Shown here one piece after another: positions 1-12,365 of a stretch of 64,000 nt of DNA. The notes under the pieces were generated by a model. That model saw only the letters and a program-made list of their open reading frames with translations, did no database searches and was not told where the DNA came from. Position 1 is the stretch's first letter. Every line of letters begins with the position of its first letter. Location: NCBI RefSeq assembly GCF_018309085.1, contig NZ_CP070502.1, positions 620,001 to 684,000 on the forward strand. Reading direction: 5' to 3'. The DNA is from Sporosarcina sp. Marseille-Q4063 (GTDB lineage: Bacteria > Bacillota > Bacilli > Bacillales_A > Planococcaceae). The position numbers and the translations under genes were made by a program.

Positions 1-66
1 TTAAATGGCCCGTTTCTTTTAATCATATAGATCCTTATTCAACAACTGCGCCCGTCAGTTGAATAA
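1..66 (-). repeat. Cassette repeat, family B, copy 1
   Basis: Left arm TGGCCCGTTT at 6-15 and right arm GCGCCCGT followed by GTTGAAT near 48-64; ATTCAAC at 37-43 pairs with the closing GTTGAAT. It ends 17 bases downstream of the stop of the gene at 83-280. The two-arm layout recurs about ten times up to position 8,652. Similarity between copies is seen by eye only. Confidence 0.75.
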
Positions 67-82
67 TTAACTTCTATATGTA

Positions 83-280
83 TTACTGATTCATTACTAT
101 ACTGTATGAAATATTAAGTTTATCCCAAATCCAAGCCTGAAAGATTTTATCCATTTCTTTATCTAATGCTTTTTCATCCATATTCCCGTCAATGCCTAAT
201 TCTTCAAAAGTAAATGTTTCTGTCGCCTCTGCGCCTTCATAACTAGTACTACTAAATGAAAAAGTTACTGTTCTCTCCAC
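83..280 (-). CDS. Small acidic hypothetical protein (DUF7167-like)
   Basis: A 65-residue acidic protein whose centre reads ETFTFEELGID and whose end is rich in Trp, Ile and Tyr. It recalls small phage- or Bacillus-associated proteins grouped as DUF7167, but that is memory of the pattern, not a search. The start chosen is GTG at 280 because GGAGGAG lies six bases upstream; an in-frame TTG at 295 would overlap that ribosome binding site. No signal peptide or membrane segment is present. It is a single-gene cassette between B repeats. Function unknown. Confidence 0.6.
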   Translation of the reverse strand: MERTVTFSFSSTSYEGAEATETFTFEELGIDGNMDEKALDKEMDKIFQAWIWDKLNISYSIVMNQ

Positions 281-350
281 TACTTTCTCCTCCAAACTAA
301 CCTTGTATGAATTTGTATTTAATAACAGTAGTTTGGCATTCCTTCTTATT

Positions 351-446
351 GCAACAATCTGGCCCGTTTGTTTTAGATAGTTGCCTTTATGTCATCCCCA
401 CCACCTTAAGGCGATCCTTTTGCGTCTATTCCTTCGCCCATCAAAC
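351..446 (-). repeat. Cassette repeat, family B, copy 2
   Basis: Left arm CAATCTGGCCCGTTTGTT at 355-372, then a central block TAGTTGCC...CCTTAAGGCGA that can fold (GCCTT with AAGGC), then a degenerate right arm TTCGCCCATC. The same central block recurs in copies 6 and 9. It separates the small gene at 83-280 from the anti-sigma gene. Confidence 0.7.
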
Positions 447-461
447 CGGCCAATAGAATGA

Positions 462-551
462 AAAATTGAAAAAGGTACCTATGCACGAAACAATCATGAA
501 TGTTCAAACATTCATGATTGTTCCAACACAGCTACCTGAAAAACTATTTTT
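462..551 (-). repeat. Long imperfect palindrome, family C, copy 1
   Basis: The core is a perfect 14-bp inverted repeat (AACAATCATGAATG, 6-base loop, complement) at about 488-521. The symmetry continues outward with mismatches (GGTACCTATGCACG against its partner) so that about 90 bases form one imperfect palindrome overlapping the stop codon of the anti-sigma gene. There is no T-run, so it is not a classical terminator. The block CCTATGCACGAAACAA recurs as CCTGCGCACGAAACAA in copy 2. Confidence 0.75.
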
Positions 552-1635
552 CAATTTCAATGATGATTTCCTCTAACTGAAACTTCTCTTCCGCTGCTTT
601 GCTACCCTCATTTCGATAGATACTACCGTTTTTATCTGTGCCATCTGCTTCCAAAAACTGTACAACTGGCGTGACAATCAGCTTTGTCGCTTCAGGATTC
701 AACTTTTCGAATGTATTGGTATGGTGAAGTTGTGTGAACGAGTCGCTGTATCCACCATTATGTTTGTTCGTATACACATTGCCCAAATCGTCTTTTACGA
801 TAATATCGACTCTTACAAAATCCCACTTTTGCATTACATCATTTGATAGTTCCTCATCGTAATGGAGTAGAAATGACATCGGGGTATAGACGACTTTCTT
901 GACTGTCACATCAACACCATTACTATCAGCACTTACATCTACGATTTGCTCTATGTTATCTGTGGCACTCAGTTCAAAATTGAACGCCCAATTGCCCTTT
1001 ATTGCTTCGGTTCCTACTGCTGAATCTGGAACAATGCTTTCAATCATAAATTCAAATTTACCGTTATCCACTTGATCCACTTGATCCTCAGTTAATAGGT
1101 CAGCAATCGTCATGCCAACATACTGGTTTTCTCCGTTTTTTAAGAGTTCATGTCGAGTTGAATAAATCATTGAAGGTGAATCAAGAATAGTGGGTACACC
1201 AGTCAATTTAGGAGACTCCCCGAGATCCATTTCACTCTCAATCGTATACGTCATGTATAAAGCTTTTCCGTCGAATATGACTTCATTCATCGTCACGTTG
1301 ATACCGTGATCCTCATTTGCAATCGCAAGGGATTCGGAATTTTCCACGTAACTTCCATAAAGTCCGTCACCACTAAATAATTGAAACAAGTTGCCTAGTA
1401 GTGGAATTTCCTGGGCAAATGAAGTGTAAGATAATCCGAATAAAGAGGCTGCAGATATTCCGATGGAAATGGATGCTGCGGCAGCCATCTTCCTCCACTT
1501 GACGGGCTTTTGCTTTCTGATTTTCCCTTTCAACTGCATCTTCACTTTTTCTCTTTCCGCTTCACTGACTTCCCCTTCTTCAAATTGACTGACGTTCATA
1601 TCAATATCGTTTAAGTGTTCATATACGTCCTTCAT
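544..1635 (-). CDS. Anti-sigma factor-like membrane protein (DUF4179)
   Basis: A 363-residue protein with a cytoplasmic head of about 50 residues, one transmembrane segment at about 51-75 (AAAASISIGISAASLFGL), and a large extracellular beta-rich part, the layout of DUF4179 proteins that pair with ECF sigma factors. The expected role is to bind and hold the neighbouring sigma factor at the membrane until a signal arrives; this is inferred from family and context. The start at 1635 has AGGAGGGT at good spacing and overlaps the sigma gene by 17 bases, so translation is probably coupled. Its stop lies inside the family C palindrome. Confidence 0.85.
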   Translation of the reverse strand: MKDVYEHLNDIDMNVSQFEEGEVSEAEREKVKMQLKGKIRKQKPVKWRKMAAAASISIGISAASLFGLSYTSFAQEIPLLGNLFQLFSGDGLYGSYVENSESLAIANEDHGINVTMNEVIFDGKALYMTYTIESEMDLGESPKLTGVPTILDSPSMIYSTRHELLKNGENQYVGMTIADLLTEDQVDQVDNGKFEFMIESIVPDSAVGTEAIKGNWAFNFELSATDNIEQIVDVSADSNGVDVTVKKVVYTPMSFLLHYDEELSNDVMQKWDFVRVDIIVKDDLGNVYTNKHNGGYSDSFTQLHHTNTFEKLNPEATKLIVTPVVQFLEADGTDKNGSIYRNEGSKAAEEKFQLEEIIIEIEK

Positions 1636-2167
1636 ATAATACCCTCCTATTATGGCGAAGCTTCTTTTTCCCGCGGTAAATCCGATTGTCGACAGCGGAC
1701 TTGCTTAGACTGAGTTTTTCTGCAGTTTCCTCGGATGAAAAGCCTAAAAGGTATTTCATGATAAAAATCTTTCGATCGATTGGATCTAATTGATTGAGCA
1801 GGTCATTGACGGTGTCTCCCACATCTACTTCCATCCATTCCTGAATGGGGTTTTCCAAAAACTCGGAAGCAAATTCATGATTCTTTACTTCTTTTCGGTA
1901 ATAATCAATAGCCTTGTATTTTGCTACGGCACAAATCCAGTTCTTAAAACCATTTTCATCACCACTGCGAAACTTCTTGGCGTTCTGCCAAACTGATAGG
2001 AAAACATCATTCACGCACTCTCCGACTAGCTCTTCTCGTTGAATGGGTCTTAGAACTTGTTGAACAACACTTTTAATGAGTGGTAAATACTGATCAACAA
2101 TATAGTCTAAAGCATCTTCCTTTCCCGATTGGAGACGTTTGATAAAGTTGGATTCATTTGACTTCAT
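1619..2167 (-). CDS. ECF-type RNA polymerase sigma factor
   Basis: A 182-residue sigma-70 family protein. Region 2 is at about residues 15-85 (YLPLIKSVV, VFLSVWQ, WICAVAKYKAIDYYR) and region 4 at about 115-170, with the helix-turn-helix FSSEETAEKLSLSKSAVDNR. Start at 2167 is preferred (MKSNESNF, AGAGGCG upstream); an upstream in-frame start at 2239 would add 24 residues unlike the family. It is immediately followed by, and overlaps, a DUF4179 gene, the usual ECF/anti-sigma pairing. The target regulon is unknown; an ECF-like promoter precedes the deacetylase gene at 48,474. Confidence 0.9.
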   Translation of the reverse strand: MKSNESNFIKRLQSGKEDALDYIVDQYLPLIKSVVQQVLRPIQREELVGECVNDVFLSVWQNAKKFRSGDENGFKNWICAVAKYKAIDYYRKEVKNHEFASEFLENPIQEWMEVDVGDTVNDLLNQLDPIDRKIFIMKYLLGFSSEETAEKLSLSKSAVDNRIYRGKKKLRHNRRVLYEGRI

Positions 2168-2275
2168 AGTTTTCGCCTCTTTTTCTCTGTAAAAGCTTCT
2201 ACACCCTATATAACGAAAAGAAAATAGCTTTATTCGCAACTATAATAAAGTATTTATAATTCTATATGTAAAAAT

Positions 2276-2345
2276 GGGGCCTGCGCACGAAACAAGTATT
2301 ATAGTTATAACACTAACGATAGCTACTAACACAGGTACCTATGCC
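2276..2345 (-). repeat. Imperfect palindrome, family C, copy 2
   Basis: GGGGCCTGCGCACGAAACAA at the left and ACACAGGTACCTATGCC at the right are imperfectly complementary. Both ends resemble copy 1, and the two copies bracket the sigma/anti-sigma pair. The interior differs from copy 1. Confidence 0.6.
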
Positions 2346-2366
2346 AACTTACAACAAACTTGTACG

Positions 2367-2448
2367 CAATCACGGGTACTATAATTCAATAATAAAAAGC
2401 TGCCATAAAAGGCAGCCGAATTCTCACTAAAGCACCCGTTAGTTGAAT
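2367..2448 (-). repeat. Cassette repeat, family A, copy 1, with embedded terminator
   Basis: The right end is AAAGCACCCGTTAGTTGAAT, directly abutting the stop codon of the gene at 2449. The left end, with CGGGTAC and TTCAATAAT, is degenerate. Between them GCTGCC-ATAAAA-GGCAGC forms a hairpin that, read on the minus strand, is followed by TTTTT: an intrinsic terminator inside the repeat. Confidence 0.75.
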
Positions 2449-2805
2449 TTATATACCGCTTTCTTTCCCTTCTATAAATTCAAGAAATTGATCTTGTAGT
2501 TCTCCTTCTGTGTCAACAGAATTCAAGAGCAGTTTAGGTTCAATAGAATCATCATCATCATCTAAGGGGATGCTTCCATCAATGATTCCTAACATTGATG
2601 AAATAGTATCAACCATTGTTTGCTCTATTATATTCATTAAAACCACTCTTTTTTCCTCAGATATACTGTTGTAGAGATTAAGAGCTTCTTTATAGTATGG
2701 GTCAGTTTTTGAATCTACTACTGTCGTTTCATATAAGTCTTTATAGCTTTCAAGATTTTCTTTAACTATTAACTCAGAAAGCGACTTCACAAAAATTTCA
2801 TTCAT
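2449..2805 (-). CDS. Conserved-looking hypothetical protein, 118 aa
   Basis: An acidic, soluble 118-residue protein starting MNEIFVKSLSELIVKENLES, with a stretch DDDDDS near residue 82. I recall similar short proteins in Bacillus genomes, also found among miscellaneous small genes, but no function is known to me. The ribosome binding site GATGAGG precedes the ATG. It is a one-gene cassette with a family A repeat at its stop codon. Confidence 0.65.
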   Translation of the reverse strand: MNEIFVKSLSELIVKENLESYKDLYETTVVDSKTDPYYKEALNLYNSISEEKRVVLMNIIEQTMVDTISSMLGIIDGSIPLDDDDDSIEPKLLLNSVDTEGELQDQFLEFIEGKESGI

Positions 2806-2958
2806 AATTGCTGCCTCATCTCCAGGTAGTTTTGCTTAATACGCTAAGTTATATGTCATATTGGCGTGATAATTGTAGTGAATTGATCTGCTCTTTAGTT
2901 TTTTGTACCTCTGAACTGAACGGGTTACAACGTCATCTCATTCATTATATTTTTTATT

Positions 2959-3044
2959 CTTATTCAACTATTCTGCCCCTTTAGTTCAATAAGGAAAAAG
3001 GCTTTACTCCTTCTGGAAGTAAAGCACCACGTTAGTTGAATAAG
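2959..3044 (-). repeat. Cassette repeat, family A, copy 2 (best-formed copy)
   Basis: Outer ends TTATTCAACTA and TAGTTGAATAA are inverted repeats; just inside lie CTGCCCC TTTAGTTCAATAAG and AAAGCACCACGTTAG. ATTCAAC and GTTGAAT fit the 7-base attC core patterns RYYYAAC and GTTRRRY. On the minus strand GCTTTACT...AGTAAAGC followed by CTTTTTCC forms an intrinsic terminator. It ends 17 bases after the stop of the VOC gene. Confidence 0.8.
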
Positions 3045-3061
3045 AAACTTATTTTTTATCC

Positions 3062-3451
3062 TCAAATTCCCAAAATCATTTTAATACGCTCATTTTCTTC
3101 TTTCTTATCCAAATACTCAAAGAAACCCAGTTGATTCCCCCAAGGGTCAGTGAAAGAACCCCATTTTACAGTGACTTCTTCACGTGAAAATATCTCAAAG
3201 TTCTCAATTCCTAACTCTTTTACAAGTCTATCTCTTTCTGCAACTATATTAGTAACCCCTAAACGTAAAGGTCCACTACCCTCAGAAGGCATTCCTTCAG
3301 CAACTTGCAACCAACAACCAGTTAGAATCTCCCATTCGACGAATCCATCGTGTGGTATAAAATCAGGCTTTTTGTTTAGTAAAGTTTCATACCACCTCTG
3401 TCCTTCTTGAATATCAGTAACACGGACTTGATTAGTTATTTCAAAAATCAT
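3062..3451 (-). CDS. VOC (glyoxalase/bleomycin-resistance-like) protein
   Basis: A 129-residue single-domain protein with the paired beta-alpha-beta-beta-beta pattern of the vicinal oxygen chelate superfamily: VTDIQEGQRWYETLLNKKPDF at the start, VEWEILTGCWLQVAEG in the middle and WGSFTDPWGNQLGFFEY near the end, the last being the typical closing strand. Such proteins bind a divalent metal and act as lyases, dioxygenases or resistance proteins; the substrate cannot be told here. AGGAGGG precedes the ATG at 3451. It is a one-gene cassette between family A repeats. Confidence 0.85.
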   Translation of the reverse strand: MIFEITNQVRVTDIQEGQRWYETLLNKKPDFIPHDGFVEWEILTGCWLQVAEGMPSEGSGPLRLGVTNIVAERDRLVKELGIENFEIFSREEVTVKWGSFTDPWGNQLGFFEYLDKKEENERIKMILGI

Positions 3452-3517
3452 TTATTTCCCTCCTAAGTTTGTATATATCTATAAATTCTATAAGTCGAAA
3501 TAATACTCCTTCTTCTA

Positions 3518-3655
3518 AAACTAACCTGCACCATTAGTTCAATAAAGAAAAAGAGCCACATATGCAGCTCAATGATCTTCAAGTAAAGCACCGGGTTAGT
3601 ACAATAAGAACAAGCAATACTCCAGTTGAGGTAAAGCAGCACTTTTGTTGGACAA
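3518..3655 (-). repeat. Cassette repeat, family A, copy 3 plus a degenerate half copy
   Basis: CTAACCTGCACCATTAGTTC at 3521-3540, GAGC...GCTC hairpin (terminator on the minus strand, followed by TTTTTC), then AAGTAAAGCACCGGGTTAGT near 3580-3600. Immediately beyond, GAGGTAAAGCAGCAC...GTTGGACAAT at about 3627-3653 looks like a second, decayed right half. It ends just after the lipoprotein gene. Confidence 0.7.
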
Positions 3656-3669
3656 TTTCTCTTATAGTA

Positions 3670-4035
3670 TTACTCCACTTTTTCTAAAGTAAGCGTAACT
3701 ATCTGAACTGGCTGTGATTCCATTACACTACCGTTGTATCCAACTTTTACCTTATCACCAACTTGAAAAGTTTCATCTGGACTCACTGACAAATCTACCG
3801 ATATTAGTCCTGAAAATCCTTCAGATTCAATGACAAGAACTTTTGCATAATAATCCTTTATCTCCTCAATCGTTCCTATAAAAGTTGCTCTTACCTCACT
3901 CTTATCATCCTTTATCTCCTCAATCGTTCCTATAGAAGTTGTTCTTACCCCACTCTTATTGTCCTTAACTTCCTCTGAAGTACAAGCAAATAATAAACTG
4001 CTTAATAAAATTGTGATTAACAAACTTAATTTCAT
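3670..4035 (-). CDS. Small lipoprotein with internal 18-residue duplication
   Basis: A 121-residue protein with a lipoprotein signal peptide: Lys, a hydrophobic stretch, then LLFAC at the lipobox, so the mature protein would be anchored outside the membrane by Cys at about 18. The mature part is a beta-rich, OB-like segment (ATFIGTIEEIKDYYAKVLVI, GDKVKVGY). Residues about 27-62 contain two near-identical 18-residue blocks ending IGTIEEIKD, produced by a 54-bp tandem duplication. The start ATG at 4035 is favoured by GAGG upstream; an upstream TTG at 4041 is possible. Function unknown; it resembles the DUF3221 type. Confidence 0.7.
   Translation of the reverse strand: MKLSLLITILLSSLLFACTSEEVKDNKSGVRTTSIGTIEEIKDDKSEVRATFIGTIEEIKDYYAKVLVIESEGFSGLISVDLSVSPDETFQVGDKVKVGYNGSVMESQPVQIVTLTLEKVE
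3857..3964 (-). repeat. 54-bp in-frame tandem duplication inside the lipoprotein gene
   Basis: Two head-to-tail copies starting TTTATCTCCTCAATCG at 3857 and 3911 differ by only a few bases. Being 54 bp they preserve the frame and add 18 residues. The high similarity suggests a recent event. Confidence 0.85.
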
Positions 4036-4131
4036 TATCAATTTACCTCAATCCTTAAATGGTTTTTCATAATAACACCTTCCTTATTATTACATTAGAC
4101 GAAATCATATATAGAAAAGTTACGTTTTCTT

Positions 4132-4258
4132 GTTCAGCTAACCTGCCCCGTTAGTTCAATATGAAAAAGAGCTTTTTCCTTTCTTATTCAGTTTAACAAG
4201 TTCAACAATCTGGCCCGTTTGTGGGATCCTCTAATTCAGAATAGCGCCCAATTGCAGT
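4132..4258 (-). repeat. Half family A repeat followed by family B, copy 3
   Basis: GCTAACCTGCCCCGTTAGTT at 4136-4155 is the left half of family A. At 4201-4218 TTCAACAATCTGGCCCGT opens a family B copy that closes with TAGCGCCCAATTGC at about 4242-4255. A and B types are thus adjacent between the S66 peptidase gene and the lipoprotein gene, as if a cassette between them had been lost. Confidence 0.7.
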
Positions 4259-4261
4259 AGA

Positions 4262-5275
4262 TCAGCTTTTTATTCCTGTAAAGATATCTAACCAGTTTTC
4301 CGTACAAAGCACTTTTTTTCTTCCAGCATCTAACTTCACTTTCTTGCCAATAGCTAGCGGATGCATTGGATGGGTATGGCACGTATCAAATTCAGCTAAA
4401 ATCGGTATGTTTAATCCATCTAATTGCTCTATCAATAAGTCTAATGGCTGTTTGCCCGTACCTAAATCATCATATTGTTCATGTTTTCCCAAGATAATAC
4501 CAGCAACTTTATCAAAAATGCCTTGTACTTTTAACATGGCAAAGTTTTTTTCAACAACTGAGGCGTTTTTCATGCAATCTTCAATTAATAGAATATCTCC
4601 TTGCTCGATTGTAGGGAAATAAGGTGAACCAATAAATCCACACATAGCATTCACATTACCACCTATTAGTCTTCCTTCTGCAATGCCACTATGGCCAGTA
4701 ATCCATTCATTTTTGTAAAGTTTTTTCTCTGTCGTTTTTTCTAGCCAATTTACTAGCTCATCTGACCAAAATGGAGGAATTGGTACTTCATAAGGTAGCT
4801 CGTTCCCTTGCATGAAATATTGTTCAAAATAACGATATGTAGCATTTACTAAAGGCTCAAATTCACCAAATGAAGGAACTAAAGCAGGACCATAATATGT
4901 TGTAATACCTGTTTTTGCATAAAGAGCGAGTAAGATAGCTGTTGCGTCCGAATATCCAACAACTAACTTTGGATTCCGCTTAAATGCTTCATAATCGATA
5001 TATGGCAACATGCTATTGGAGTTCGTTCCACCAATAGTGGACATTATCATCTTTACGTTCGGGTTTCTTAGTAGCTCATTTAACTCCTCTGCACGCTCCT
5101 TGGGTGATCCTGAACGATATCCATCCGACCGTCCTGTCAATTTTCCTTCCATAAGAACAAAACCTTTTGCTTCTAAAAAAGATTTAGCCCGTTTAAAGCG
5201 CTGTTTTGCAGTAACTGTGGCAGGTGAAGATGGTGTAAATATACCAATTACATCTCCCTTTTTTAATGATTCCAT
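4262..5275 (-). CDS. S66 family peptidase (LD-carboxypeptidase / MccF-like)
   Basis: A 337-residue protein with the two-lobed S66 fold. Visible catalytic elements are Ser109 in VVGYSDAT, Glu232 in LLIEDCMKN and His300 in DTCHTHPM, the family's Ser-Glu-His triad. The length and the sequence near STIGGTNSNSMLPY match MccF, which cleaves the amide of microcin C-type nucleotide antibiotics, better than LdcA, which trims murein tetrapeptides. The actual substrate is not decided by sequence. GAGGTG precedes the ATG. It is a single-gene cassette, and a self-immunity or resistance role would suit such a setting. Confidence 0.9.
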   Translation of the reverse strand: MESLKKGDVIGIFTPSSPATVTAKQRFKRAKSFLEAKGFVLMEGKLTGRSDGYRSGSPKERAEELNELLRNPNVKMIMSTIGGTNSNSMLPYIDYEAFKRNPKLVVGYSDATAILLALYAKTGITTYYGPALVPSFGEFEPLVNATYRYFEQYFMQGNELPYEVPIPPFWSDELVNWLEKTTEKKLYKNEWITGHSGIAEGRLIGGNVNAMCGFIGSPYFPTIEQGDILLIEDCMKNASVVEKNFAMLKVQGIFDKVAGIILGKHEQYDDLGTGKQPLDLLIEQLDGLNIPILAEFDTCHTHPMHPLAIGKKVKLDAGRKKVLCTENWLDIFTGIKS

Positions 5276-5317
5276 GATAACTTTTTCACCTCGATTTTTT
5301 TCAAGAAATTGGTTAGC

Positions 5318-5379
5318 AACATGGCTCTATTCAAAAAGAGCGCACTCTTACTCAATTTGTGCGCCCGTTTGTTTATTTA
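5318..5379 (-). repeat. Cassette repeat, family B, copy 4 (degenerate left arm)
   Basis: The right arm GTGCGCCCGTTTGTTTATT at 5359-5377 is clear. The left arm is reduced to CAACATGGCTCTATTCAA at 5319-5336. It lies 7 bases beyond the stop of the GNAT gene. Confidence 0.6.
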
Positions 5380-5385
5380 GCTTTT

Positions 5386-5940
5386 CTATTCTGTTTGTAA
5401 AATCCATTTTAAAAACATATCTTTTTCTACCACGTTTAATATACAAGAGGCATTAACTTCGGACTCTAATTTCCTATGTTCATCTGGAAACTCTTTTTGG
5501 ACTTCGATCCGCATAAAAGGTAACTTCTCTTGGGATTTCATAGATCGTATATTAGAAGTTTTGGCTCCAGCGAATACATAATCCAAATTTAATTCTGTAA
5601 ATGCTTTATATAAGATTTCCCTTTTTGCTAATAAATTATAGCCTTGCCCCCAATATTGATTCCCTATCCAAGTACCGATATGACTAGTTTTATTGATGTT
5701 ATCAATGTCTTTTAGTGTTATTACCCCGATTAAATTTTCGGTTTCATTAAGGATGGCTCTTGAATATTGCTTTCCTAGTCTTTCTTGTTCCCGAATAAAC
5801 TCGATAAAACCAATAGTTCCTTCAAGAGAAGTTTGGTCATTGGTAAGTCCCAACGCAGCCTTTACTTGAGGTGATGACGAAAGTGCTGACATTGATTTTG
5901 CATAAATTTTATTATGTGGAACTAATGAAACTTTGGACAA
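5386..5940 (-). CDS. GNAT N-acetyltransferase, RimJ/RimL type
   Basis: A 184-residue acetyl-CoA-dependent N-acyltransferase. The core is at about residues 10-150: ENLIGVITLKDID (strand 4), HIGTWIGNQYWGQGYNLLAK, the acetyl-CoA binding stretch, where the usual QxxGxG/A reads NQYWGQGY, and FAGAKTSNIRSMKSQEKLPF, the region after motif A in RimJ-like enzymes. The substrate could be a protein N-terminus or a small amine. The start is TTG at 5940 with GGGGGGAT upstream. Single-gene cassette. Confidence 0.85.
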   Translation of the reverse strand: MSKVSLVPHNKIYAKSMSALSSSPQVKAALGLTNDQTSLEGTIGFIEFIREQERLGKQYSRAILNETENLIGVITLKDIDNINKTSHIGTWIGNQYWGQGYNLLAKREILYKAFTELNLDYVFAGAKTSNIRSMKSQEKLPFMRIEVQKEFPDEHRKLESEVNASCILNVVEKDMFLKWILQTE

Positions 5941-5979
5941 TCCAATCCCCCCAGAGATTAATAATATTTGAATCCCAAT

Positions 5980-6043
5980 CCAACAAAATGGCCCGATTGT
6001 TAAAAAAGGTGCAATCCCTGTGCAACAATCGCGCCCGATTGCG
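5980..6043 (-). repeat. Cassette repeat, family B, copy 5
   Basis: CAACAAAATGGCCCGATTGT at 5981-6000 and CAACAATCGCGCCCGATTGC at 6023-6042 are two direct near-copies of one arm. The copy ends 13 bases after the stop of the TraX gene. Confidence 0.75.
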
Positions 6044-6055
6044 GCATAAATAATT

Positions 6056-6844
6056 TTACTTTAAATAGATTCCAATCAAATATAAGATTAAGATGTGTCC
6101 TGGATAAAAAATATAAAAAAAGTGTTTTAAACCGGCTCCCCTTTTTCCGTTATAAAGCAGGATAAACGGTAATGCAGCAATCATAATCCATTGATATCTT
6201 GCAAATTGAACTAAATAAATATAAGGGGCATCTGGTCTCTGACCCCATTTAACGTAAGCTATATAACAAAACAAGGAAAACAAGCAATAGACGATAACAA
6301 TGCAGCTTATTTTTTTTCTGGTTAGATAAAGAAATAAGCCAAGAAGTACAAATAGTGGACCACCTTCTACGAAGAGAATGCTACCGAATGCAGATCCAAA
6401 AAACTGATAATTGATTGTAGTCTCACTAGTCAAGTCTAAACTTAATACTTCTACAAATAACACACTCAGAAACAAAGCTAATACTTGCCAAATGATAAGA
6501 TAAAATACATATTTGCTTTGCTTTTTTTCTAACAGATAAATTATCATCACAATTAAAAAAAGTGGTGCAAAAAAATTGTTTGTTATATACATTTGGGTTT
6601 CGTTAAAACTAATGTTGAAAATAAGATTTAATACTGCCATTCCAAAACTAAAAAGGTACAAACGAATGATGTAATTTTTTCTGTTTGAAGTATGTTGATA
6701 GCCTATAACTAAAGCATAAATAAAAATGGGAATTGCTATTCTGCCTATCCAATGAAACCAATCAGTCGTATTAGGAATAAATTGACCAATATGATCAATG
6801 AGCATTGTTATTAATGCAATAATTTTAAGTTTTGTATTTGTCAT
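6056..6844 (-). CDS. TraX family membrane protein
   Basis: A 262-residue integral membrane protein with about eight hydrophobic helices. The opening KIIALITMLIDHIGQ with the conserved Asp-His, followed by IGRIAIPIFIYALVIGYQHT, is the signature of the TraX family, named after the F-plasmid pilin acetylase. Chromosomal homologues in Firmicutes are of unknown role, probably acyl transfer to a surface polymer or peptide. AGGAGAG precedes the ATG. Single-gene cassette between B repeats; the C-terminus ILILYLIGIYLK is complete. Confidence 0.88.
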   Translation of the reverse strand: MTNTKLKIIALITMLIDHIGQFIPNTTDWFHWIGRIAIPIFIYALVIGYQHTSNRKNYIIRLYLFSFGMAVLNLIFNISFNETQMYITNNFFAPLFLIVMIIYLLEKKQSKYVFYLIIWQVLALFLSVLFVEVLSLDLTSETTINYQFFGSAFGSILFVEGGPLFVLLGLFLYLTRKKISCIVIVYCLFSLFCYIAYVKWGQRPDAPYIYLVQFARYQWIMIAALPFILLYNGKRGAGLKHFFYIFYPGHILILYLIGIYLK

Positions 6845-6870
6845 TTATTCTCTCCTACTATATTCCGTAA

Positions 6871-6953
6871 ATTGGCCCGTTTGTTTTATATAGTTGCCTC
6901 TAAGTCATCCCATCACCTTAAGGCGATTTATTCAATAATCGCTCCCATTTGTA
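6871..6953 (-). repeat. Cassette repeat, family B, copy 6 (long form)
   Basis: Left arm ATTGGCCCGTTTGTTTTATA, central block TAGTTGCCTCTAAGTCATCC...CCTTAAGGCGAT shared with copies 2 and 9, and right arm TTCAATAATCGCTCCCATTT. It lies 15 bases after the stop of the 52-residue gene. Confidence 0.75.
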
Positions 6954-6967
6954 CAAAATTTTCTTTT

Positions 6968-7126
6968 TCACTTGTTACTGTTTTCTTTATCTAGCAAAGT
7001 GATTAACTTATCTAATTTCTTTTCTATTCTCTTATTGCTTTGAATTTTTTTCTGTTGATTGCTCAGTAGAAAACTAAACATCAACGCAAGAAAACAAACG
7101 AATGAGATACCTAACAACACTTGCAT
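6968..7126 (-). CDS. 52-residue single-pass membrane peptide
   Basis: A short gene reading M Q V L L G I S F V C F L A L M F S F L L S at its start: one membrane helix at about 2-22. The rest is a charged tail with a short coiled-coil-like segment (RIEKKLDKLITLLDKE). This layout, a helix followed by KxxDxxxxLL, is seen in small Bacillus proteins such as DUF4083, but assignment is tentative. GGAG stands ten bases before the ATG. Its position between two B repeats, like every other gene in the array, supports it being real. Confidence 0.6.
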   Translation of the reverse strand: MQVLLGISFVCFLALMFSFLLSNQQKKIQSNKRIEKKLDKLITLLDKENSNK

Positions 7127-7220
7127 ATTTATCTAACTCCTTTTAGCCACTACCGAAAGAGAGATAGTTTTACAAAGCTATTTCCTGGCAAAGTAACCGA
7201 TCTTCTAGACTGTATCTATC

Positions 7221-7279
7221 CAACAATACTAGCCCGATTGCAGCACAACGTTGTAAGACAAAAGCGCCCGATAATTTAA
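7221..7279 (-). repeat. Cassette repeat, family B, copy 7
   Basis: CAACAATACTAGCCCGATTG at 7221-7240 and AAAGCGCCCGATAATTTAAT at 7261-7280. It overlaps the stop codon of the DUF4181 gene by a few bases. More decayed than neighbouring copies. Confidence 0.65.
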
Positions 7280-7683
7280 TACAGTAAATTAAATTTCGCC
7301 ACAACGATTACAACTACTAATAAAATAAAAATCTCCGTTAAAGTTAAAATAAACTGCTTTGGATACTTAGAATATTTCCATTCAAAAAATGCCCTAATCA
7401 TCATCCGTATGAATGTGAATATAAGAACCGTAATAATAAACAAGTTATAGGATTCGGGAAAATACACGAGATCTACCACTAAAACTAAAAATAAAATAAC
7501 CAATGAATAGTCTCTAAATGGTTTATCCACTTCCCGATGTAACTGCTTCACGTAATTGCGAGAAGAATCATCCTCACTTACTTTCGGTATGTTAAACATT
7601 CTTCGCATAAGGGACTTTGCTATATATATTAAAGCAAAAGTAACAATGAAAATTAAAGCAAGCCTTAGAAAAAACCAAATCAT
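7276..7683 (-). CDS. DUF4181 membrane protein
   Basis: A 135-residue protein with four hydrophobic segments at about residues 5-22, 60-78, 80-98 and 113-132. The middle loop YVKQLHREVDKPFRDYS and the segment IRAFFEWKYSKYPKQFILTL match the DUF4181 pattern as I remember it from Bacillus. No function is known for the family. AAGGAGGG precedes the ATG. Single-gene cassette. Confidence 0.75.
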   Translation of the reverse strand: MIWFFLRLALIFIVTFALIYIAKSLMRRMFNIPKVSEDDSSRNYVKQLHREVDKPFRDYSLVILFLVLVVDLVYFPESYNLFIITVLIFTFIRMMIRAFFEWKYSKYPKQFILTLTEIFILLVVVIVVAKFNLLY

Positions 7684-7699
7684 AGCACTATCCCTCCTT

Positions 7700-7758
7700 G
7701 CAATCTGGCCCTATTACTGAATAGGCGCTAATCCTTATTAAAGAATTGCGCCCGTTTA
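7700..7758 (-). repeat. Cassette repeat, family B, copy 8
   Basis: GCAATCTGGCCCTATTACTG at 7700-7719, then GCGCTAATCCTTATTAAAGA and ATTGCGCCCGTTTACG at 7745-7760. The TTATTAAAGAAT-GCGCCCGTTT half closely matches copy 10. Confidence 0.75.
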
Positions 7759-7779
7759 CGGAGATATTTCTATCTTTTA

Positions 7780-8121
7780 TTATAGATCGTTATTTTTTTC
7801 GTGAAAAGATAATTCATCAGCAAATACCTCAAGTTCATAGTTTTTCATAGAATGAGAATCTAAGAGGTCTTTAAAGTATGATTCTACTAGTTCTTTGTAC
7901 TGAGCTTCTTTAATTCTAACCGTCATCTTTTTTTCTTCTTGGCTTAATCCCATACCATACACAGTGAATTTATCTTGAGCGTCATTAAAAACTTGATTCT
8001 CGCTAGAAAATAATGTTTTATCAATACCATTTCCAGTCTTACTCATTTCAAGTGGATCTTGTACAAAAAATAGTACTATTCCAGCCAGAATTATAGATAA
8101 TCCGAAAATTATTTTCTTCAT
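7780..8121 (-). CDS. Hypothetical protein with N-terminal membrane anchor
   Basis: A 113-residue protein with a hydrophobic segment at about residues 4-20 (IIFGLSIILAGIVLFFV) preceded by two Lys, followed by a polar domain of mixed alpha/beta prediction, so it is either membrane-anchored or secreted. There is no lipobox Cys. The ATG at 8121 follows GGGGTGG; the longer frame to 8166 lacks a ribosome binding site. I do not recognise a family. Confidence 0.65.
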   Translation of the reverse strand: MKKIIFGLSIILAGIVLFFVQDPLEMSKTGNGIDKTLFSSENQVFNDAQDKFTVYGMGLSQEEKKMTVRIKEAQYKELVESYFKDLLDSHSMKNYELEVFADELSFHEKNNDL

Positions 8122-8168
8122 AATACCACCCCTAAATTCATTATGTTTTTTAAATAGATAGTTCATTA

Positions 8169-8252
8169 ACTTGGCCGATTGTTTTATATAGTTGCCTCTA
8201 AGGCAGCCACATCGCCTGAAGAAAATCTATTCAATAATCGCGCCCGTTAGCT
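8169..8252 (-). repeat. Cassette repeat, family B, copy 9 (long form)
   Basis: AACTTGGCCGATTGTTTTAT, then TAGTTGCCTCTAAGGC...ATCGCCTGAAG, then CTATTCAATAATCGCGCCCG to about 8246. The central block is shared with copies 2 and 6. Seventy bases separate it from the next gene's stop, more than usual. Confidence 0.75.
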
Positions 8253-8321
8253 TAAGTGAGCATATTCACAAACTGTTAATATTCAGAGGTTTGTTTTTAT
8301 AATTTTTTTCACTGTCGTTAC

Positions 8322-8540
8322 TCAAATTTCTCCAAGTTCTTGCAATTCTTCATACCCTTCTATAAAATAATCTCGGTCTTTTAAGCAAACAACTTTCTTT
8401 TCTGGACCTTCAGGCAACTCAACTTCACTAAGGAGTTCACCACATGTAAAACAATTACCCAATACTTCTTCAAGTGGGATTACATTCTTATCAGTATATT
8501 TTAAGTATTTTTCAATGTCGGCTTCACTAAAGATTTTCAT
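8322..8540 (-). CDS. Hypothetical 72-residue Cys-containing protein
   Basis: A small acidic soluble protein. It contains CFTCGELL at about residues 30-37 and a third Cys at about 52 (KVVCLKDRDYF), which could be part of a small metal site, though only three Cys are present. AAAGGAG precedes the ATG. I do not recognise a family. Single-gene cassette. Confidence 0.6.
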   Translation of the reverse strand: MKIFSEADIEKYLKYTDKNVIPLEEVLGNCFTCGELLSEVELPEGPEKKVVCLKDRDYFIEGYEELQELGEI

Positions 8541-8582
8541 GTAATTCTCCTTTCTTTTTCAAAAATTAATTTAGTAAATCAA

Positions 8583-8652
8583 CACAATCTGGCCGGTTTG
8601 TGTGATATGGACGCAATCGCTTATTAAAGAATCGCGCCCGTTTGTTGAAGAT
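8583..8652 (-). repeat. Cassette repeat, family B, copy 10 (well formed)
   Basis: CACAATCTGGCCGGTTTGTG at the left, CGCAATCGCTTATTAAAGAA in the centre, and TCGCGCCCGTTTGTTGAAGA at the right. It ends 12 bases after the stop of the YesK-like gene. It gives the clearest view of the direct arm duplication (ATCtGGCCGGTTTGT against ATCGCGCCCGTTTGT). Confidence 0.8.
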
Positions 8653-8663
8653 GTGCAACTTTT

Positions 8664-8933
8664 TTATTTTGCTTCAATGGTCTTCTTGGCCATTATAAAA
8701 GAAACTACTGCAAAACCAATTAGAAAGAAAGCGACAATTCCGTAAGCTGCACCTTCAAATCCCCTAATCTTTACAAAACCAATGTAAAACAGAACAATTG
8801 CCGTTATAGCTGTTAAGATTCCTGGTATTGTTCGGACAAAAAAAGAAAGGTGCATTTTCTTAAACCACCAAGTAATCAATAATATAATACTTCCCAATAT
8901 AACAGCTGTTAAAAAAGGTACTAAAATCATCAT
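8664..8933 (-). CDS. YesK-like small membrane protein
   Basis: An 89-residue protein with three membrane helices at about residues 1-22, 34-52 and 60-82. The segment FVRTIPGILTAITAIVLFYI followed by GFEGAAYGIVAFFLIGF is what I recall for YesK-like proteins of Bacillus, whose function is unknown. The start ATG at 8933 has AAGGGG nine bases upstream; the in-frame TTG at 8942 would abut it. It is the last cassette gene before the group II intron. Confidence 0.7.
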   Translation of the reverse strand: MMILVPFLTAVILGSIILLITWWFKKMHLSFFVRTIPGILTAITAIVLFYIGFVKIRGFEGAAYGIVAFFLIGFAVVSFIMAKKTIEAK

Positions 8934-9060
8934 ACTACTCAACCCCTTCTGTTTTTTAGTTCATCATATAATTACTCTACCTACCAATAGACTCCACGGC
9001 TACTTATTTCACAAAAGTAGCAATAGGTAAGCCTTTGAAGTCATCTCCAGCTTTTCCCCT

Positions 9061-9102
9061 GCTCCGCACCGAACGTGCTAGTTTCCCAGCATTCGGCGCT
9101 CC
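9061..9102 (-). ncRNA. Group II intron domain V
   Basis: On the minus strand GAGCGCCGAATGC-TGGGAAACTA-GCACGTTCGGTGCGGAGC folds as a hairpin with a GAAA-containing cap and a bulge, matching the catalytic domain V shape (AGC triad near the base, GNRA loop). It follows the maturase stop by about 50 bases, as expected. Confidence 0.8.
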
Positions 9103-9154
9103 ATCTATCGATGTATACTAGATTATAAGTTCTTCGTTCCTTTTTGACGTGAGA

Positions 9155-10952
9155 TTATACTACCGTTTCAAGCCCACATTCCATTCGGTATTGGTTTAGT
9201 TTTCTTATCATTGGAGCCGTTAATCCGAATTTCATTATCTCTGCCGAGATAATTTCTGTGTTTTTACGATGTACAAGGCGATGTATGTCTTTGTGAAGAA
9301 TACGGAGATTATTGAATTTGTCCGTTCCTCCAAGATGTGTTGGAATATAATGATGGCAGTGAACTTCTTGGAAGGTTAAACTCCAACCTGTGATTTCGCA
9401 TTTACCCATTTTCATACTGAAACGGCTAATGCGGTTATCCACATATTCAACCGTTCTATTGGGAAGCTTTGCCTTCATTAATCCGCTGATTTCTAAACTG
9501 ACATTCGGCTTTAATTTATCGTAAATTCTCTTTCTGCCTTCCTCCGTATAAAGAGAAAGCTTGCGGCTAAAGTTCATGGCATTTACAGTTCTGACATCTC
9601 CAATCGGAAATAAGTGTACTCCTGCGATTTTGAACGTTTTCACTTTCGTGCTATAGAACTTTTTATATGCCGAGCTAGGGTTGATTGGATGTCCATATTT
9701 CCCTACAGGACGAAGGCGGTTATACAGAAAGGCTTTTAATTCATAGGAGAGACGTGAGAACTCCAGGTTGACATGAGTTGCTCGGTTAAAGTAATTGTGA
9801 ATACCTAAAACAAAACTATTTGAAACGTAATGCATTTTGAGTGGTAGGCGGTTTCTTTATCCTTTGGATATGAAATTTAGCCTGTTCTTTTAATTTCTCT
9901 TGTTTCTTCTTTTTAATGCCCGTATGGGCAACTCTTTTGTTTCTCTTTGCATTCGCTTTGATTGTAAAGCCTAAGAATTCAGATTCTCGCTTTCGCAAAT
10001 TTACGATTTGCGATTTTTCCGGTGATATGTCTAGTTTTAAACGTTCTTTGAGATACATTCCAACTGCATGATACCACTTCTGAGCCGTTATCCCATCTCG
10101 ACAAAGGATTTTAAAATCGTCCGCATAGCGGACAAGGTATCCCTCTTTGAGGTTTGTACGTTTCTTTGCGTATCTTTCCCCAACTTTTGATTTGTAGTTT
10201 TTCGAGAGAGGGAAGAACTCCCATTGACCCGCGACCCACTGGTCTAGGTCGTTTAGTACAATGTTTGATAATAGAGTTGATAAGATACCACCTTGAGGAA
10301 CTCCTTTAGATGGTACTCCTTCTTTATCAATTTCGGCATTCAACATTTTGGATACGCAAGCCAATACTCTTCTATCATGGATTCCTAGATTCCATAATTG
10401 TTTGATGAGAAGCGTATGATTTACGTTATCGAAAAAGCCTTTAACATCAATGTCAACCACGTAATGTAGCTGCGCTTGATTAATTAAGAATTGTACCCTT
10501 GCCATAGCATGATGAGTAGACCTTAACGGTCTAAAGCCATAGCTGTGACTGTAAAAATGAGCTTCTGCAATAGGCTCAAGAACTTGTTTAAAACACTGTT
10601 GGATAACCCGGTCGAGAATACATGGAATACCAAGTGGTCTTAGTCCACCACTTTCCTTTTCAATCCATTTTCTTCTAACTTTCTTGGGTCGATAGTTTTC
10701 CAGTTTTGTTTGGATGGTTTCCACTAATTCATTTTCCGAAAGCCCTTTGATGTCATCGATGGTTTTACCATCCGTGCCCGGTGTTTTGGAACCTTTGTTT
10801 GTTTTGATTGTACGAAACGCCAATAAAATGTTCTCTCTTGAGATAATAATGTCATAGAGATGGCTGAACGTATTGTGATTATTGGCTTTTTCGTATAAAT
10901 CCGTGAAGGTTTCCGTCATATTGTAGTAATCCCAATATCTCAAAGTTGACAC
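9155..10952 (-). pseudogene. ltrA: Group II intron reverse transcriptase/maturase with HNH domain, frameshifted
   Basis: The first frame (about 10,952-9,816) holds the reverse transcriptase: GLRPLGIPCILDRVIQQ, VDIDVKGFFDNVNH, the PQGG motif and YADD, then the start of the X/maturase domain. It stops after TTQNALRFK. The second frame (9,835-9,155) continues the same family with NSFVLGIHNYF and ends in an HNH nuclease (CEITG, HCHHYIPTHLGGTDKFNNL). Removing one A from the AAA at about 9,817-9,820 restores a continuous protein of about 600 residues, so a one-base insertion splits it. Start GTG at 10,952 has AGGAGGGATGCCACA upstream. Confidence 0.88.
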
Positions 10953-11656
10953 TGTGGCATCCCTCCTAATGAGTGATGTTCCCACATTCCTACCCGATCG
11001 GTGTCATTCACGTGAAGAAAATAATCGTTTTACCTCGTTAGACTTGGGGCTGTTCCTCCGTTCCCATTACAGGAATTTCACAGGTCATACCCCTACCTTC
11101 ACAAGAGTGAATGCATTTCAGTTAATCCCTTATAGCAAACGTTTTGGATGACAGTCCTCGTTTCAACGTCTCTTGCTTCCCAAGTCCCTTACAACGTAGC
11201 TATCCATTCTAGACGTAGGTGCTTCCTTTAAGCCTGCGAGTTGGATACCGCCATTGTCCGGTATAGCGAATTTCAGAGGGCCAAGTTTTACTTTTCACCA
11301 CTCGCCCCATCGTTGGATGGGACATAGCTTTACACTATGTTCAAACTTTAGACCCTTAATTTCGGAAGTTTGTCAGTTCCTTTAGGAAGGAACATTCTAA
11401 CCGTATCTAGTTTTTCAGCCATCCGGCATATCAGTTGGCATACCTTTTCCATAGGAATGGCTTTAGCTTTCCTTCTGCCGACTCTACCTGTGCTTCGAAC
11501 CCCATGAACTGTCCTTCATGACGCACGCAGGAATCTTAATGGGATAGTTTCAGAAAACATGGCTTCCTCATTCCTATCCTCCGTTGTAAAGTTGAAATTT
11601 ACTTTATAAATTTCCTGTGTTTTCATGCCGAAGGCATTTATCACAGAACTTGTCGC
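10953..11656 (-). ncRNA. 5' ribozyme region of the group II intron (domains I to IV)
   Basis: About 700 bases without a credible gene lie between the putative intron 5' end and the maturase start. The size fits domains I-III plus the start of domain IV. The base composition is more GC-rich than the flanks and many short complementary segments are present. I did not fold it. Confidence 0.7.
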
Positions 11657-11677
11657 GCTGGCCCGTTTGCTGAATAA
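11655..11677 (-). repeat. Half family B repeat at the intron 5' junction (copy 11)
   Basis: GCTGGCCCGTTTGCTGAATA is one B arm. The expected CAATCT neighbour is replaced by the intron start. No matching second half is seen on the far side of the intron at about 9,000. The following 190 bases to the next gene show no convincing coding region. Confidence 0.65.
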
Positions 11678-11867
11678 GACGTCTTCTTATATCTCTATTT
11701 TAGCACAAAATCTTTTACTCCCTTTGATATCTTCAGTTAATTCTAAAATATTTTCTATCAATAATTGCCTAAACATTGATATAGCAACAAAAATGGGACA
11801 CCAATTCAATGTTTTCTCCCAGTGCACCGAACCCATAAATTTCATTGGAGGCCATCTTCACATTTTT

Positions 11868-12365
11868 TCACCCTGTATAGCTGACCTTTCCCGTTTCAAC
11901 TAATTCTTTCAGTCCCATAAACATTAGGTTCCAGCCATGTTCAGATCCATCGTGGTACTCTTTAATCGCCTTTTCGATATCGTCGCTTGTCCAATTTTCT
12001 TCATGCGGAACAATGATAGCTTGTGAAAATGTCATTTCGCAACCCTCTGGAATTTCTTTTAACTCGACCCTAATCGTGTCTACTGTATCGCTAAACTGTG
12101 GCATTTCAAACGTAAATACCAATTTTTTCGACGGACTAATTTCAACATACTCCCCAATCGCACGGTAATCCTTACCATCGCGACGGTCAACGATTTCCCA
12201 TGTTCCGCCTACCTCAGGATTGTTAGTTGCCACTTTGTTTGTTCCTTCCAATGTGAATAACCACTTTCTTATCATTTCGGGATTCAACCATGCATCAAAG
12301 ACCTTTTCAGATGCTACATCAAAATTCCTTACCATTGTTAATATCGTTGTTGAATAATTGCTCAT
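11868..12365 (-). CDS. SRPBCC / AHSA1-like protein
   Basis: A 165-residue protein of the START/Bet v1-like fold, family AHSA1 (activator of Hsp90 ATPase homologue). It opens with a strand (ILTMVRNFDVASEKVFDAW), then PEMIRKW, GGTWEIVDRRDG, GEYVEISPSKKLVFTFEM and a long C-terminal helix (HGWNLMFMGLKELVE). These small proteins bind hydrophobic ligands; the ligand is unknown. AAGGAGAG precedes the ATG. It lies just upstream of the B half repeat and is the first gene clearly outside, or the last in, the cassette array. Confidence 0.85.
   Translation of the reverse strand: MSNYSTTILTMVRNFDVASEKVFDAWLNPEMIRKWLFTLEGTNKVATNNPEVGGTWEIVDRRDGKDYRAIGEYVEISPSKKLVFTFEMPQFSDTVDTIRVELKEIPEGCEMTFSQAIIVPHEENWTSDDIEKAIKEYHDGSEHGWNLMFMGLKELVETGKVSYTG

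Follow-up and report, generated by a model that had tools for sequence, protein, structure and literature searches.

Cassette arrays in a Sporosarcina chromosome point to an integron-like gene-capture system of Bacillales with a Xer-like recombinase

The window analyzed here is a stretch of 64,000 nt, positions 620,001–684,000 (window position 1 = 620,001), from the single 3,978,257-base chromosome contig of Sporosarcina sp. Marseille-Q4063, and its left part belongs to array 1, a row of small genes each followed by a repeated sequence. We estimate at roughly three in four the probability that array 1 belongs to a Bacillales system for gene capture that resembles an integron, does not use IntI and has lost or never had its enzyme in this genome. 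The layout of the repeated sites, the points at which homology breaks and the cassettes shared between loci point to exchange by site-specific recombination, and a clade of Xer-like tyrosine recombinases is indicated as the presumably active enzyme of the system by its position in the arrays of related genomes and its co-occurrence with the sites.

Array 1 spans 616.9–631.7 kb of the 3.98-Mb chromosome, with its genes on the minus strand. A first-pass annotation of the window had described 13 small units, head to tail on one strand up to position 11,700, as one-gene cassettes with a palindromic repeat 3′ of each gene. The 13 units and their repeats are indeed present, although they only span positions 1–8,950, and most of the units hold a single gene: unit 544–2,239 contains two, coding for an extracytoplasmic function (ECF) sigma factor and a DUF4179 protein. 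The segment from 9,017 to ca. 11,658 is no cassette, as it matches group II introns (RF02004, 84.9 bits; RF00029, 62.4 bits). Its reverse transcriptase (RT)/maturase (TIGR04416, 308.2 bits, cut-off 300) is split over two frames, with open reading frames (ORFs) at 9,155–9,835 and 9,816–10,985, and the intron interrupts the array's first site, of which the left half remains at 11,659–11,677 and the right half is split off. Twelve of the 13 units have an ORF of at least 60 aa, the one at ca. 6,957–7,140 containing only an ORF of about 51 aa (by eye).

Each repeat is made of two directly oriented 28-bp dyad core sites (hereafter boxes), one with a GGGCGC centre and one with a GGGCCA centre, and a linker of ca. 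43 bp between them. Both boxes are 11-6-11 dyads pointing in the same direction. Among 104 non-identical full units from this and related genomes, the consensus of the box adjoining the stop codon is aTTCAACAATC-GGGCGC-aATTcTTGAAT and that of the distal box aTTCaaCAATC-GGGCCA-gtTTGTtGAAt (lower case, base in under half of the units), and the distance between the centres of paired boxes has a median of 42 (range 25–86). A matrix for both boxes called 2,012 cores in the fetched loci versus 122 in shuffled loci, 984 of the 2,012 having an unclassed centre, many of them the palindrome in backward reading. For segments that start at a CA centre and finish at a GC centre, the median length is 560 bp (n = 160); for those that start at GC and finish at CA it is 43 bp, with 77 % under 90 bp (n = 168).

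Since RNAalifold did not find a consensus structure in 15 units of this genome, these were used as seeds for a sequence-only repeat model, R1. At E ≤ 1e-4, R1 identified 19 places in the genome, 16 of them in arrays 1 and 2 (ca. 20 kb of 3.98 Mb), a clustering that exceeds chance; 15 of the 16 array places are the seeds themselves, and the non-seed places are at 616,899, 1,222,409, 1,222,897 and 2,928,252. Repeats next to genes outside the arrays, which the first-pass annotation had named as possible evidence against a cassette array, thus exist but are few, and those that we read are small sets, near 1.22 and 2.93 Mb, or single-cassette platforms, with single cassettes or pairs at 1.45, 1.52, 2.00, 2.34 and 2.80 Mb. 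With the same threshold, sites appeared in 123 of 200 genomes of the family Planococcaceae, where that annotation had advised looking for them, and, among 299 genomes from across the phylum, in this genome and G525 (best 3.6e-5). Plasmid records gave one weak match to array DNA. A loose one-box pattern was discarded as too weak, with 26 matches in the genome versus 17 for the reversed control.

Comparison of the fetched loci, in 848 alignments of 80–2,500 bp with at least 80 % identity (12 redundant locus pairs dropped), yielded 222 end-site pairs at up to 15 nt from a core, from 1,620 internal ends, where an even spread would give 17.5. The 5′ ends of the alignments peak at the first G of the core (19) and their 3′ ends at +5 (22). 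G122, which represents a different species of the genus, has a TraX cassette that shares 96 % identity over 908 bp with that of the window but stands between unrelated neighbours; the stretch of high identity extends from the box2′ core to a point next to the box1′ core, the linker beyond being different, and the xerD and xerC regions of both genomes are only 72–80 % identical. Under a strict rule, ten distinct matches extend from core to core (11 rows, one of them on both strands). The Lysinibacillus loci L163, L218 and L220, which share 95–98 % identity over ca. 1 kb containing the recombinase gene and leader, diverge at or just past the site, for instance after ...ATTGTAGG, followed by TACAG, versus ...ATTATAGG, followed by GCCAT, and their first cassettes differ. 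Loci from B. horikoshii and Sutcliffiella (L141, L145 and L135; 91–92 %) split at AATCGGG/CAGG, AATAGGG/AGAA and AATAGGG/AGTT, with the slash marking the break. That related loci differ from the first site on is what would be seen if cassettes were captured at the site adjoining the recombinase gene, and sister-species loci display different cassettes at the same site instead of the fixed gene order that would have spoken against mobility. In these alignments, the point at which shared cassettes lose their homology is the GGGC centre and not G/TT. The first core 3′ of the gene is where the alignment stops in the TraX pair and in several other matches. We therefore dropped the idea of box, linker and box as a single attC-like unit, and the linker seems to be a segment separate from the cassette.

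The position of the breaks is also relevant for a reading in which the repeats would be intergenic sequences similar to terminators or to miniature inverted-repeat transposable elements (MITEs), the cassettes moving by homologous recombination or by transposition of a platform only. One kind of platform does look like this: it is an element with 25-bp terminal inverted repeats, ACCCGTTCAGTTCACTGGTACAAAA, present in five copies at 0.30, 1.52, 2.00, 2.34 and 2.80 Mb (L225, L054, L052, L053 and L055) that carry one or two cassettes each, with a lone end at 2.23 Mb and a relic end inside array 1. The flanks of the loci at 2.34 and 2.80 Mb are near-identical and their cassettes differ (one gene versus two), and a flank search located the element also at 0.30, 1.52 and 2.00 Mb, with a different cassette in each. 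By eye, the loci at 1.52, 2.00, 2.34 and 2.80 Mb consist of a promoter-like box, a left half site, a gene, a right half site and a terminator-like hairpin; the kind of promoter-like box found in array 1 also precedes the sites in L052–L055, and some sites adjoin terminator-like hairpins (by eye). These MITE-like traits (terminal inverted repeats and dispersed copies), however, occur in the platform element only and not in the cassettes. Moreover, the breaks cluster at one point within a 28-bp site whose arms come from different partners, and a site of this size is too short for ordinary homologous recombination. The two centre types alternate in order and a recombinase is tied to the sites, and we regard this reading as quite improbable.

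In agreement with the first-pass annotation, which reported no integrase in the window, PF00589 did not reveal a recombinase near the arrays; its matches in this genome were XerD, XerC, two prophage-type integrases and one fragment. The genome has no dedicated recombinase. The tyrosine recombinase that the same annotation proposed to look for on the left was not near the arrays of this genome, but a clade of such enzymes was inside those of its relatives, and this, together with the cassettes found in other contexts and the breaks at the repeat, agrees with its suggestion of an undescribed or convergent cassette system. We reached the clade from the places matching PF00589 in 20 chosen site-rich genomes, starting with a protein from G017 and five others 76–81 % identical, one of which is truncated by a stop. 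When 84,980 species genomes were scanned, with two short peptide patterns restricting the search, the clade was extended to 103 relatives, of which 80 were kept, from hosts that include Sporosarcina, Filibacter, Lysinibacillus, Ureibacillus, Neobacillus, Peribacillus, Fictibacillus, Lentibacillus, Virgibacillus, Gottfriedia, Rossellomorea and Sutcliffiella.

The clade proteins are Xer-like, with ca. 286 aa, and in an alignment of 30 of them the catalytic residues K168, H235, R238, H261 and Y270 do not vary at all, and R144 hardly does. The clade was separated from the XerC and XerD of the hosts with a support of 99/99, in a tree built without IntI and with several long branches flagged. Its best solved relatives are XerC-like 4a8e and XerD 1a0p, with IntI4 (2a3v) in sixth place. 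Two members scored 108.5 and 99.8 bits on the integron integrase model TIGR02249 (cut-off 265), on which host XerD reached 152.7, and 218.2 and 214.4 bits on the best NCBIfam model, NF040815 (cut-off 220); the latter does not define the clade, since host XerC and XerD also attain such scores (227 and 237.9 bits). The spacing from catalytic R to H is of 90–92 residues in 53 of 56 proteins (95 in XerC and 97 in XerD), which suggests that the clade lacks the I2 insertion described in the catalytic domain of integron integrases (PMC8138268). A search for IntI in 250 genomes of the family found none at E ≤ 1e-40, although this search gave no match in any control genome either and absence is thereby not shown.

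The 80 non-redundant copies of the recombinase gene were examined for cores in forward orientation, leaving 78 after removal of two with too little flank: 14 are flanked by cores both upstream and downstream, 16 by an upstream core alone, 17 by a downstream core alone and 31 by none. In shuffled windows, the rate of cores is 2.3 %. The upstream cores (30 copies) have centre GGGCGC in 19 and GGGCCA in none, and the downstream cores (31 copies) have GGGCCA in 22 and GGGCGC in none, the median distance being 157 nt to the first aligned base for the former and 82 nt from the stop for the latter. In the copies with both cores, the gene occupies the place of the linker. With a stricter matrix, a core was found at up to 420 nt downstream in 31 of 87 non-redundant copies, on the other strand in 7 of 87 and upstream in 2 of 86, and all 31 strict downstream cores belong to the 63 copies with at least 69 % identity. 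Among the 200 family genomes, the recombinase (E ≤ 1e-60) occurs in 60, and sites are present in 55 of these versus 68 of the 140 genomes lacking it (odds ratio 11.6, p 1.6e-9, a statistic that ignores kinship). In the 299 genomes from the phylum, recombinase relatives were found in G525 (74 %, two copies), G324 (49 %) and G341 (44 %), and G525, the one further genome with sites, is the sole member of this set whose recombinase exceeds 70 % identity.

The sites could also be dif-like modules moved by the housekeeping XerC and XerD, as proposed for pdif modules, with the clade being a passenger of the arrays. The 11-6-11 layout of the consensus is that of Xer sites, this genome combines XerC, XerD and prophage-type integrases with the lack of a dedicated enzyme, and nearly half of the sampled genomes without the clade (the 68 above) possess sites. 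A Bacillus-type dif consensus, which may differ from the dif of the host, did not match this genome when 3 mismatches were allowed. A mere passenger, however, would hardly be expected in many loci in a fixed order between two types of centre, nor to co-occur with the sites, and we consider this explanation unlikely.

Besides the neglect of kinship, several observations weigh against an integron-like system served by this clade. Flanking cores are lacking in 31 of the 78 recombinase copies, and of the 24 copies below 69 % identity none has a strict downstream core and eight have an inverted site within 200 nt downstream. Sites exist without the recombinase, in this genome as in those 68 relatives and, conversely, five of the 60 genomes with the recombinase have no site at E ≤ 1e-4 (G054 and G094, with ca. 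40 % identity; G070, G149 and G152, with 64–76 %). Alignment ends at 16–40 nt from the cores are also common (123), the local excess being about three-fold and the ends non-independent, and several related recombinase loci diverge before the site, some of them at the stop codon of the recombinase gene, and others some bases past the site. The last two bases are not shared by the two centres, and homology over a full 6-bp overlap is therefore lacking. The promoter signal is weak, with a box ahead of the sites of relatives in 9 of 30 cases versus 15 % in shuffles, and the boxes from this genome were recognized by eye.

In the integron-like system that we favour, the 11-bp arms would be the binding sites of a dedicated tyrosine recombinase of Xer-like type and strand exchange would take place in the GGGC centre, such that a gene between two cores could be excised in circular form and then be inserted at a different core. 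This circular intermediate, and the entry rather than the loss of cassettes, are presumed. Entry would be favoured at the core that directly follows the recombinase gene and at that behind the promoter in the small platform elements, and the cassettes would probably be expressed from the upstream promoter. The arrays of this genome may be relics, or may be served in trans. We also lean, with less confidence, towards the idea that a second kind of integron, assembled independently, exists in Bacillales, in which a Xer-derived recombinase without the IntI insertion would capture single genes at simple dyad sites, with its own gene inside the array in the place of the linker, and in which entry sites would also be distributed over the chromosome by miniature elements with a promoter, one site and a terminator.

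Relatives of the recombinase also appeared in 23 plasmid records, seven of them at 60–80 % identity, and in four phage records, all below 60 %. The plasmid relatives with 36–39 % identity (H11–H21) are mostly annotated as xerA or integron integrase and come from Lactococcus, Ligilactobacillus, Enterococcus, Latilactobacillus and Lysinibacillus. L116 (G006) and L122 (G018) contain several tyrosine recombinases in a row, which we presume to be Tn554-like clusters, the sites in L116 being 2–7 kb away. In L171, L174, L176, L178, L179, L183, L184, L186 and L188, with recombinases below 69 % identity, the downstream sites are inverted and the array would face the recombinase gene.

The features of array 1 in the window are collected in Table 1. 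To the left of the window, beyond which the array had been predicted to run, it continues for ca. 3.1 kb more and ends at 616,899 with a box followed by a terminator-like hairpin. Array 2 is situated at 699.1–703.8 kb in the same orientation, both arrays are on the locally gene-richer strand (17 stretches sampled) and, from 520 to 844 kb (324 kb), no box with up to 5 mismatches was found outside them. Array 2 contains one 71-aa cassette twice (96.7 % over 395 bp), and the DUF4181 cassette from array 1 recurs there as one further copy, with 83 % protein identity, and one that is broken; the 72-aa cassette of the window has a second copy alone at 1.4466 Mb (93.8 % over 373 bp). Of 61 genomes of the genus, 28 have homologues of this DUF4181 cassette, at loci that almost all escaped the strict box pattern; of those read by eye, two have degenerate boxes and two others show none. 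Pairs of sigma factor and membrane protein genes are found twice in one array (544–2,239 in the window; L010:17072–18620), as two-gene units in both cases, and a perfect 16-bp inverted repeat, AACAATCATGAATGTT, lies at 489–522, directly 3′ of the DUF4179 gene. In L114:12031–13492 (G049), sites at 12,031, 12,509, 12,987 and 13,465 are spaced by 478-base steps, with segments 100 % identical, corresponding to the same cassette in tandem.

Table 1. Features of array 1 within the window, from right to left (window coordinates).
Feature	Position	Strand	Basis
Extended -10-like promoter box TGCTAAAAT before first site	11697..11705	-	by eye
First core site (attI-like), left half, TTATTCAGCAAAC-GGGCCA; right half cut off by group II intron	11659..11677	-	sequence
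Group II intron, RT/maturase ORFs in two frames, inside first site	9017..11658	-	RF02004, RF00029, TIGR04416; 3′ end approximate
Cassette gene, 92 aa, no Pfam family	8664..8942	-	ORF, Pfam
Double core site and linker	8583..8649	-	repeat model R1, 55.6 bits
Cassette gene, 72 aa	8322..8540	-	ORF
Double core site, long linker	8162..8255	-	R1, 40.7 bits
Cassette gene, 128 aa	7780..8166	-	ORF
Double core site and linker	7697..7762	-	R1, 53.6 bits
Cassette gene, DUF4181	7276..7683	-	family match
Double core site and linker	7219..7279	-	R1, 37.5 bits
Cassette, short ORF of ca. 51 aa	6957..7140	-	by eye
Double core site, long linker	6863..6956	-	R1, 38.8 bits
Cassette gene, TraX family; G122 has a cassette with 96 % identity	6056..6844	-	family match, alignment
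Double core site and linker	5979..6046	-	R1, 51.1 bits
Cassette gene, GNAT acetyltransferase	5386..5940	-	family match
Degenerate site	5310..5380	-	one box at 5,351 with 5 mismatches; remainder by eye
Cassette gene, LD-carboxypeptidase (Peptidase_S66)	4262..5275	-	family match
Core sites, families A and B	4127..4257	-	R1, 36.7 bits at 4,201–4,257; repeat D4
Cassette gene, DUF3221-like	3670..4041	-	below Pfam cut-off
Family-B core sites	3510..3655	-	repeats D4, D7
Cassette gene, 129 aa, no family match	3062..3451	-	family searches
Family-B double core site, long imperfect inverted repeat	2957..3046	-	inverted repeat I1; fold z -3.87
Relic of 25-bp terminal inverted repeat of mobile platform	2901..2925	-	92 % over 25 bases
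Cassette gene, 118 aa	2449..2805	-	ORF
Degenerate family-B site with terminator-like hairpin	2330..2453	-	repeat and hairpin
Two-gene unit: ECF sigma factor and DUF4179/DUF5643 protein	544..2239	-	family match
Degenerate site	350..460	-	one box at 350 with 3 mismatches
Cassette gene, 70 aa	83..295	-	ORF
Double core site and linker, end 5 bases left of window	1..63	-	R1, 48.8 bits at 619,996–620,063

We found no description of such a system in Bacillales in the open-access literature (preprints were outside the search). Complete integrons are almost absent from Firmicutes in surveys (PMC9024848), and the path from Xer-like enzymes to IntI is discussed without a living intermediate (PMC7790495). 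If our interpretation is correct, cassette capture would have arisen more than once, or its early state would have a living model in this system, which would also account for the movement of small accessory genes between Gram-positive soil species, and could be tested in ordinary laboratory strains.

Xer/dif systems and pdif modules share with these arrays the 11-6-11 dyad, a Xer-like enzyme and genes between directly repeated sites; they differ in that the arrays described here can contain a dedicated recombinase gene (in relatives, not in this genome), reach 10 or more genes and have sites unlike the Bacillus-type dif consensus mentioned above. NF040815, a model for tyrosine recombinases/integron integrases of the XerA type, is the closest to the clade, which nevertheless stays just under its cut-off. 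Some group IIC introns use attC sites, and array 1 recalls these group IIC-attC introns in having a group II intron in its first recombination site, a likeness seen in a single case.

The likeness to integrons, and to clusters of attC sites lacking integron integrases (CALINs), is broader: mostly single-gene cassettes lie head to tail in one orientation, a tyrosine recombinase gene has an adjacent entry-like site, arrays occur with and without the enzyme, and small accessory genes of mixed function form cassettes that are common to several species. Array 1 could even be a CALIN from a Gram-negative donor with degenerate attC sites, given that the outer ends of the units resemble RYYYAAC and GTTRRRY and that their length is within the attC range, two points noted in the first-pass annotation. 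This attC reading is not supported, and such an origin is highly improbable: besides the break at GGGC, the outer arms of the two boxes pair no better than in shuffled sequences (R″/R′ z -0.04, n = 104), and the linked recombinase, with a catalytic spacing that is Xer-like, is far below the IntI cut-off (108.5 bits versus 265). For the inner L″/L′ pairing, z is 3.5 in the 104 units and 2.1 in 51 representatives, and the substrate of the exchange may be double-stranded or a folded single strand. From integrons, the arrays differ in having a Xer-like clade without extra residues between catalytic R and H, simple dyad sites with exchange apparently at GGGC and a separate linker of ca. 43 bp, and a recombinase gene located inside the array and co-oriented with it. 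Judged from sequence, the system is integron-like by function but no integron by family, because its IntI score, catalytic spacing and exchange point are not those of an integron.

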